Positions 4,122-5,254 of a DNA stretch of 5,254 nucleotides are shown piece by piece (position 1 is the first letter of the stretch; each line of letters starts with the position of its first letter). Under the pieces are notes generated by a model that worked only from the letters and a program-made list of their open reading frames with translations, was not told the origin of the DNA and searched no databases. The position numbers and the translations under genes were made by a program. Location: positions 1 through 5,254 of the forward strand of contig JALSNL010000042.1 of NCBI GenBank assembly GCA_026987055.1. Reading direction: 5' to 3'. This DNA is from Melioribacteraceae bacterium (GTDB taxonomy: Bacteria > Bacteroidota > Ignavibacteria > Ignavibacteriales > Melioribacteraceae).

Positions 4122-4194
4122 GCGGGAGTAGCTCAGTTGGTAGAGCATCACGTTGCCAACGTGATTGTCGCGAGTTCGAGTCTCGTCTCCCGCT
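4122..4194 (+). tRNA. tRNA-Gly (anticodon GCC)
   Basis: A full cloverleaf folds in 73 bases. The acceptor is GCGGGAG/CTCCCGC. The D-arm is GCTC/GAGC. The anticodon stem TCACG/CGTGA encloses the loop TTGCCAA, which gives anticodon GCC for glycine codons GGC/GGU. The T-arm is GCGAG/CTCGT with loop TTCGAGT. Base 73 is T, as in many bacterial tRNA-Gly. CCA is not encoded, so it must be added after transcription. A promoter lies upstream and an intrinsic terminator directly downstream, so it is probably a single-gene transcript. Confidence 0.97.
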
Positions 4195-4198
4195 CAAA

Positions 4199-4335: not shown

Positions 4336-4617
4336 ATGATAAAATCTTTTGGAGATAAAGAAACTGAAAAAATTTGGGATGGTATAAGAGTTAGAAATTT
4401 TCCAGCGAACATTCAAAATATTGCTCGAAGGAAATTGAGAATGTTAAATAATTCACAGAACATTAAAGATTTAAAAATTCCTCCATCTAATAGACTTGAA
4501 AAACTTAGTGGAAGATACAAAAGCTTTTACAGTATAAGAATCAACAAGCAATGGAGAATAATATTTAAATGGGCTGGCGGAAACGCACTTGAAACTAGAA
4601 TAGTAGATTATCATTAA
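4336..4617 (+). CDS. higB: HigB-type toxin, RelE/ParE superfamily
   Basis: This 93-residue protein is of normal HigB length. Members of this family are ribosome-dependent mRNA endonucleases that cut translated messages and stop growth until neutralised by HigA. The family pattern is visible: basic helix ARRKLRMLNNS (30-40), then LKIPPSNRLEKLSGRYKSFYSIRINKQWRIIFKW in the order expected for the PF05015-type fold, and the C-terminal RIVDYH (88-93). Arg74 in QWRI and the terminal Asp91-Tyr92-His93 correspond to residues considered catalytic in characterised HigB toxins, so the protein is probably active. The ATG at 4336 has no clear Shine-Dalgarno site. It is followed after 11 bases by the antitoxin gene. 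Toxin-first order is typical of higBA and unlike most other toxin-antitoxin operons. Confidence 0.93.
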   Translation: MIKSFGDKETEKIWDGIRVRNFPANIQNIARRKLRMLNNSQNIKDLKIPPSNRLEKLSGRYKSFYSIRINKQWRIIFKWAGGNALETRIVDYH

Positions 4618-4628
4618 AACAATAGAAT

Positions 4629-4928
4629 ATGAAAGAATTAAAGAATATACATCCTGGTGAAATATTACTTGAAGAATTTTTAAAACCTCTTAAAATTTCA
4701 GTTTACAGACTTTCAAAAGATACTTTTCTTCCTCAGACAAGGATTAGTGAAATTGTTAAGGGACGTAGAAGAATAACTGCCGATACAGCTTTAAGATTAT
4801 CTCGGTATTTTGGTAATTCTGCAAAATTTTGGCTTGGCTTACAAAGTGATTACGATATTGAAGAGGAAAAAATTAATAAAAAAACCGAGCTTGAAAATAT
4901 TCAAACAATAAATACCAGTGCAGCATAA
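4629..4928 (+). CDS. higA: HigA-type antitoxin, XRE family helix-turn-helix
   Basis: This 99-residue antitoxin should bind and neutralise the HigB product and repress the operon. The N-terminus NIHPGEILLEEFLKPLKIS (6-24) is the hallmark opening of the HigA/VapI family. A helix-turn-helix follows (about 24-50: VYRLSKDTF...TRISEIVKGRRRIT), then TALRLSRYFGNSAKFWLGLQSDYDI (53-77), the conserved second half of the domain. The last 20 or so residues are polar and variable. The ATG at 4629-4631 is 11 bases after the higB stop with no good Shine-Dalgarno site, suggesting coupled translation. No terminator is obvious downstream. Confidence 0.94.
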   Translation: MKELKNIHPGEILLEEFLKPLKISVYRLSKDTFLPQTRISEIVKGRRRITADTALRLSRYFGNSAKFWLGLQSDYDIEEEKINKKTELENIQTINTSAA

Positions 4929-5001: not shown

Positions 5002-5103
5002 GGCGGCGTGGCCAAGTGGCTTAAGGTCCCACTCTAAATCAGCGGGATAAACTTCGGTCTGCAACCCGCCTTTGTTTTCGGCGGGCGAATCCGATCGCCG
5101 CAG
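5002..5103 (+). pseudogene. Aberrant tRNA-Cys-like element with remodelled middle
   Basis: The first 25 bases (5002-5026) are identical to the start of the intact tRNA-Cys downstream: acceptor 5' strand GGCGGCG, TG and most of the D-arm. The last 16 shared bases (5086-5101) match its T-arm and acceptor 3' strand. A central GGTCTGCAA (5056-5064) matches the Cys anticodon loop region. Between D-arm and that segment are about 28 extra bases that form their own hairpin: TCCCACT (5027-5033), loop CTAAATC, AGCGGGA (5041-5047), with one A:C mismatch. A second hairpin CCCGCC/GGCGGG (5065-5070 and 5080-5085) disrupts the T-arm, so the normal TTC of the T-loop is missing. The first acceptor pair is G:A and base 73 is G rather than the T expected for Cys. 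It is unlikely to be an ordinary elongator tRNA. It could be a decaying duplicate, a tRNA-like regulatory RNA, or an unusual adaptor. Confidence 0.6.
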
Positions 5104-5149: not shown

Positions 5150-5223
<74 letters not shown>

Positions 5224-5254
5224 CTACTGATTCTTTTCGTAATTTTTTCTACAT

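Follow-up and report, generated by a model that had tools for sequence, protein, structure and literature searches.

A broken tRNA-Cys copy with GC-rich palindromes as a probable relic of a small GIY-YIG homing element at tRNA genes

Integrase elements at tRNA genes are recognised by an intact tRNA at one end of the insert and a 3' tRNA piece at the other. Rickettsia palindromic elements and other short palindromic repeats are short, dispersed palindromes that have inserted into genes. SegB of phages T4 and T6 is described, in the portions of the reports drawn on here, as a free-standing GIY-YIG homing endonuclease of the tRNA gene region that promotes amplification of a tRNA segment (PMC13096335; PMC2988022). 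In CPR bacteria, GIY-YIG insertion sequences have been reported in rRNA genes, where, according to the accessible part of that report, they lie at the top or base of stem-loops (PMC11270868). The locus described here holds a broken extra copy of tRNA-Cys that features GC-rich palindromes, and comparison with related genomes suggests that it is probably the relic of a small GIY-YIG homing element with tRNA genes as its targets. The nuclease of such an element would cut a recipient tRNA gene between the anticodon and the T loop, repair would copy the nuclease gene in along with tRNA sequence and leave tandem copies, and the extra copies would persist where a palindrome interrupts the cut site and would thereby block re-cutting. 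A different explanation is that an ordinary duplicated tRNA-Cys turned into a landing site for dispersed palindromes, with the GIY-YIG genes being mere neighbours and not the cause, which we consider unlikely.

The window, which is the whole stretch of DNA that was analysed, is a contig of 5254 bases (G000:C42) that ends 30 bases after an intact tRNA-Cys; the assembly to which it belongs is 2.35 Mb in 458 contigs and is 69% complete. Its features, in window coordinates, are the following:

4122..4195, + strand: tRNA-Gly (GCC), called by ARAGORN; the order tRNA-Gly to tRNA-Cys is kept in most relatives read
4336..4928, + strand: HigB-like toxin and HTH antitoxin genes (Pfam: PF05015, E 4.9e-24; PF01381, E 5.8e-6)
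5002..5026, + strand: 5' block of the copy, acceptor 5' strand and D arm of tRNA-Cys, 25/25 identity to 5150-5174
5027..5055, + strand: hairpin 1 (TCCCACT/AGCGGGA) and tail TAAACTTC, belonging in mutated form to the dispersed palindrome TCCCGC-n-GCGGGATAAACTCC
5056..5064, + strand: retained tRNA-Cys block GGTCTGCAA with the GCA anticodon, from the alignment
5065..5085, + strand: hairpin 2, which replaces the anticodon 3' arm, the variable region and the 5' half of the T arm
5086..5101, + strand: 3' block, end of the T loop, T stem 3' strand and acceptor 3' strand with the last base(s) lost, from the alignment
5150..5224, + strand: intact tRNA-Cys (GCA), source or target gene (ARAGORN; Rfam tRNA, 65.9 bits)

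The anatomy of the copy is established by comparison with the intact gene. Direct reading and alignment place it at 5002-5101, and its ends are base-identical to the gene at 5150, as the first-pass annotation had noted: 25 of 25 bases agree at the 5' end, and 5086-5101 consists of 16 bases, CGAATCCGATCGCCGC, of the intact tRNA-Cys. The copy is 100 nt long and the matching part of the intact gene is 72 nt, which gives the 28 extra bases that had been estimated. Both GC-rich hairpins that had been pointed out are present. The arms of hairpin 1, TCCCACT at 5027-5033 and AGCGGGA at 5041-5047, enclose a loop of 7 nt and include a single A.C mismatch, and the arms of hairpin 2, CCCGCC at 5065-5070 and GGCGGG at 5080-5085, enclose a loop of 9 nt. 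Hairpin 2 stands in for the 5' half of the T arm, which agrees with the disruption described earlier. The middle of the copy had been regarded as novel, and this holds for the two hairpins set into it; GGTCTGCAA with the GCA anticodon is kept at 5056-5064, however, so that the middle is partly old. The outermost acceptor pair is lost (A at 5102). Hairpin 1 is mutated (TCCCACT for TCCCGCT, and TAAACTTC for TAAACTCC), and these changes fit an ageing copy. By itself, the window element reads as a dead scar. The hairpins of the window exceed chance: the 2.35 Mb assembly has 3 occurrences of CCCGCC-N0-14-GGCGGG compared to 0 for the reversed control pattern, and a comparable hairpin is found in 70 of 3000 random stretches from the same loci. 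The other two CCCGCC-GGCGGG places (L069 and L070, G000:C220 and G000:C443) are in loci without a tRNA, where the hairpins lie within a longer shared repeat resembling an inverted-repeat element.

The same element is found next to tRNA-Cys in related genomes, and the prospect raised at first pass of a one-off absent from all close relatives was not borne out. Hairpin-bearing or interrupted tRNA-Cys copies are present in 12 of the 96 other genomes searched, six further genomes of the 96 having matched solely through an intact tRNA-Cys. Intact genes feature AACC-N10-GGTT, or a sequence near it, between the anchors GTCTGCAA and CGAATCC, whereas in the copies this stretch is mostly CCCGCC-nnn-GGCGGG with varying loops, once CCCGGC/GCCGGG and once CCCCGAT/ATCGGGG. 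The exact hairpin 2 pattern between these anchors was found in 18 stretches in named records, from Ignavibacteria and Melioribacter, Calditrichia and relatives, one WOR-1 genome and one record labelled Bacteroidetes; in viral contigs, the exact 27-nt element pattern gave 0 stretches. A second uninterrupted GTCTGCAA...CGAATCC stretch was seen in none of the Cys loci read, and a scripted recount with strict rules (21 broken copies in 15 loci) gave the same absence. Upstream copies mostly retain the 5' end, some of them in full like the copy in the window, and are often short of 3' bases, and downstream copies mostly retain the 3' end, minus about 8 to 55 bases at the 5' side, with most being without the 5' acceptor strand. 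The G036 copies have a T loop interrupted by a hairpin pair, and other copies are cut short. Copies of tRNA-Glu, tRNA-Ser and tRNA-Cys (L120, L127 and L031) share a T-loop insert of two hairpins, placed between GGTTC and GAATCC, with stems that differ in their letters.

The association of the broken copies with GIY-YIG genes is established by comparison of loci. In relatives the order is typically an intact tRNA-Cys, a GIY-YIG domain within about 50 nt, and then the 3' part of a tRNA-Cys, interrupted by a hairpin where the window copy is also interrupted. The tRNA-Cys-linked gene has about 80 codons; one of the proteins matches PF01541 with an E value of 1.8e-18, and many other PF01541 matches are present in relatives. 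By hand count, 15 of the 25 Cys loci with a broken copy feature a GIY-YIG gene, six end at or before the expected place of the gene (the window, L033, L044, L058, L060 and L063), and four have broken copies and sequence on both sides without a GIY-YIG gene (L031, L038, L040 and L041). These four loci count against the homing reading and in favor of the explanation by a duplicated tRNA. The small GIY-YIG genes taken from whole-genome PF01541 matches make up 75 rows, several of which are neighbours in one array and for which match ends were mostly taken as start + 210. A tRNA or tmRNA lies within 400 nt in 41 of the 75 rows, the nearest one always on the same strand, and no tRNA lies within 400 nt in 34, which counts against the homing reading. 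One of the underlying genome sets was mostly picked for prior element matches, one for hairpin 2 loci, and one was an even draw; the phylum-wide even draw alone gives 8 of 22 rows with a tRNA or tmRNA within 400 nt, where 22 of 28 new loci were used and six with long frames were excluded. Repeated loci, L187, L146 and GIY-YIG matches in long frames such as UvrC were excluded from the counts. Loci that combine a GIY-YIG gene and a tRNA hold broken copies of the same tRNA, and the gene usually has the intact tRNA on one side and a same-strand piece of that tRNA on the other. This arrangement argues against GIY-YIG genes as mere neighbours, as does the presence of 12 isotypes among the broken copies at loci that were reached by way of GIY-YIG genes. 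At two loci (L115 and L122, G036:C536 and G023:C44), GIY-YIG genes lie about 145 nt after a tmRNA, and their proteins group with tRNA-Ala-linked ones.

Hairpins are enriched in the broken copies, a perfect hairpin being one with arms of at least 6 bp. Loci L050-L067 are unusable for this comparison because they were fetched by requiring hairpin 2, hence the loci found through GIY-YIG genes were counted apart. In the latter, a perfect hairpin is present in 33 of 44 broken tRNA copies (12 isotypes) versus 6 of 26 intact partners. The counts over all sets are 60 of 75 broken copies versus 7 of 44 intact tRNAs, the 70 of 3000 random same-locus stretches given above, and 128 of 1500 letter shuffles. 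Hairpin 1 belongs to a family in which one palindrome recurs at many unrelated places: TCCCGC-n-GCGGGATAAA has 42 listed places in 22 of 58 genomes, and the reversed control has 1 match. The exact palindrome of this family was found nowhere in the window's own genome. The contexts of the 30 hairpin 1 loci read include broken copies of tRNA-Cys (L086, by eye only), tRNA-Met, tRNA-Pro (L085, a weak case) and tRNA-Ser, as well as stretches without a tRNA match. Hairpin 1 is a dispersed palindrome, already mutated in the window, and its dispersal, also far from tRNA copies, counts in favor of a duplicated tRNA-Cys that palindromes landed on. At two loci (L073 and L074, G071:C1 and G058:C1), two and three tandem units of about 320 nt resemble, by eye, tRNA-Ser pieces in antisense, with two palindromes each.

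The lineages of the nucleases are largely matched to their targets, as established by comparison of the proteins. The tree features 91 proteins and 88 columns, proteins of fewer than 60 residues having been dropped from 99 distinct ones, and many of its forks are open because there are only 88 columns. All 17 of 17 Cys-linked nucleases, from Ignavibacteria, Calditrichia and others, form one branch with an SH-aLRT support of 95, with four of the 17 Cys labels set by hand from the adjoining tRNA-Cys piece. The tRNA-Ala- and tmRNA-linked proteins form one other branch (SH-aLRT 99), and 3 of 5 Leu-linked proteins join with a support of 99. The tmRNA has an alanine-type acceptor domain. The tRNA labels require 24 changes on the tree, where the minimum possible is 21, the shuffle mean is 37.9 and 0 of 200 shuffles are as low; near copies inflate these label-clustering counts, but it was tRNA sequence, not protein, that led to the Cys loci. 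The match to targets is not one to one, with two changes each for the Ser-GCT, Pro, Asp and Asn labels and three for Val. Of the 35 rows without a tRNA label, 31 are on one branch (support 90) apart from nearly all labelled rows. The Cys-linked genes gave dN/dS values of 0.07-0.35 in 13 of 28 printed pairs, the other 15 being saturated, and therefore the Cys-linked nuclease proteins are constrained. Nuclease lineages thus tend, as far as the tree can tell, to match their tRNA targets, and this clustering of proteins by target is not what would be expected if the GIY-YIG genes were mere neighbours of a duplicated tRNA-Cys.

One clear empty site is established by comparison of two genomes of the same genus. 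At this site G043 carries a single tRNA-Cys without a GIY-YIG gene. G023 shares with it the tRNA-Gly, the spacer, the intact tRNA-Cys and the terminator; next in G023 come a GIY-YIG gene and a 3' piece of tRNA-Cys with a hairpin, and this piece runs on into a flank homologous to that of G043. G023 also features a broken copy with the tRNA 5' end directly after tRNA-Gly, as in the window minus the toxin pair. The broken pieces of G023 differ from its intact tRNA in the acceptor stem, which counts against a clear order of events and indicates that part of the material may be imported. The pair G050 and G006 is also compatible with an empty and a loaded site.

In the window, the toxin/antitoxin pair is placed between tRNA-Gly and the broken copy and is outside the proposed element. 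The relatives read have a short spacer where the window has this HigB-like toxin and HTH antitoxin pair (4336-4928), and elements of more than one kind may land in the spacer between tRNA-Gly and tRNA-Cys. A nuclease gene at the window locus is not visible because the contig ends 30 bases past tRNA-Cys; either the element has been lost and the window copy remains, or the nuclease gene is located past the end of the contig. The 69%-complete assembly has four PF01541 matches, none of which was tied to tRNA-Cys, a point against the homing reading. Contig C89 of the same genome was considered as a continuation of the window. It starts inside a GIY-YIG gene with no tRNA-Cys piece after it, and is therefore not the continuation. 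The window's own genome carries the system of GIY-YIG genes and broken tRNAs on other contigs. Contig C95 features a GIY-YIG gene flanked on both sides by tRNA 3' pieces with the hairpin ATTCGCCGCGGCGAAT, in tandem, and contig C395 features a GIY-YIG gene about 113 nt after tRNA-Ala.

The first-pass annotation had left a choice between a structured RNA under selection and a recombination product. Recombination is favored by the recurrence of the element beside tRNA-Cys in relatives and by other tRNA genes that are similarly broken in GIY-YIG loci, whereas a structured RNA found no support. A functional structured RNA on a tRNA-Cys scaffold, whether a decoy, a processed RNA or an unusual adaptor, is accordingly very unlikely. 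It would account for the replacement of arms by arms, and for stems that pair perfectly in almost all Cys copies next to variable loops, two of these copies having wholly different paired stems, a point limited by the fact that many loci were fetched by requiring one stem. The suggested check with tRNA and RNA-family models returned nothing for the copy: in the window ARAGORN called only the tRNA-Gly (4122) and the tRNA-Cys (5150), and cmscan against Rfam (E<=1) gave zero matches in the broken copy, so that these programs do not recognise a functional tRNA-Cys cloverleaf in 5002-5101. The RNA fold of the copy (-39.4 kcal/mol, z -1.88) is mildly unusual; 8 of 200 shuffles fold equally well or better, and therefore the whole fold is not exceptional. 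The roles proposed for such an RNA also fit poorly with the A.C mismatch and the lost outer acceptor pair in the window, with the many copies that are partial, most downstream ones being without the 5' acceptor strand, and with stems that come from a palindrome stock common to other loci, the hairpin 1 palindrome also being found outside tRNA copies. An Rfam search of 20 loci, mostly GIY-YIG loci for which an intact tRNA had yet to be identified, yielded tRNAs, two tmRNAs and a few matches that scored under the curated values. Two other tRNA types were considered and rejected. The sequence ACTCTAAATC resembles amber-suppressor or pyrrolysine-type anticodon loops, however, when read that way the stem is unpaired, and the loop is variable among relatives; a type II tRNA with a long variable arm had no tRNA model match. 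An assembly artefact at the contig end of a metagenome bin, which the position of the copy, 150 bases short of the end of its contig, might suggest, is scarcely credible given the same structures in many separate assemblies, including the single-contig genome G008.

The reading of the window element as a relic of homing can be extended to a chromosomal family of minimal homing elements, tentatively and at somewhat less than even confidence. Each lineage would be devoted to a single tRNA or tmRNA gene. An exchangeable GC-rich palindrome would blank the cut site of the tRNA copy that the element carries, so that this copy could act as a homology arm safe from the element's own nuclease, and hairpin-marked copies would be the fossils of this process. 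Taken jointly with this proposal, and held with the same reserve, genomes of several phyla may keep hairpin-marked tRNA copies as a fossil record of homing, of which the window is one case. If this is true, a large class of very small selfish genes targets the tRNA genes of these bacteria, and odd tRNA-like pieces beside tRNA genes are readable scars, which would explain a class of tRNA pseudogenes. It would also mean that there are natural nucleases with tRNA-isotype-specific DNA targets, and it raises the testable question of how palindromes replace the arms of a gene copy. Among open-licence papers, no report was found of hairpin-bearing tRNA copies beside bacterial GIY-YIG genes. The window opens onto a widespread tRNA-linked GIY-YIG system for which this literature yielded no description.

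In comparison with known systems, the 6-8 bp GC-rich cores described here are concentrated in broken tRNA copies, a description that would set them apart from Rickettsia palindromic elements and other short palindromic repeats. As in the integrase elements, the insert at these loci lies between an intact tRNA and a 3' tRNA piece; here, however, the inserted unit holds a single GIY-YIG gene (about 240 nt), and the DNA between the repeats showed no integrase. The CPR insertions are similar in that GIY-YIG genes are found inside or beside structural RNA genes; they differ in that the target is rRNA and not tRNA, that the GIY-YIG there was judged to be outside spread by homing, and that the accessible part of that report makes no mention of tRNA, palindromes or hairpins (PMC11270868). 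SegB likewise features a GIY-YIG gene beside tRNA genes that is tied to tandem amplification of a tRNA segment, and its kind is enriched near tRNAs in phage genomes, according to the portions of the reports drawn on here, in which hairpin-bearing broken tRNA copies are unmentioned for SegB (PMC13096335; PMC2988022). Unlike SegB, the present elements are in bacterial chromosomes, encode about 80 amino acids and belong to lineages tending to match one tRNA; only 2 phage records matched a Cys-clade protein, both below 60% identity. What would be expected of a SegB-like element is found here as a GIY-YIG domain in the linked gene (in relatives, not in the window), a gene beside its presumed tRNA target, and empty sites in relatives. 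SegB is a precedent for the proposed mechanism.
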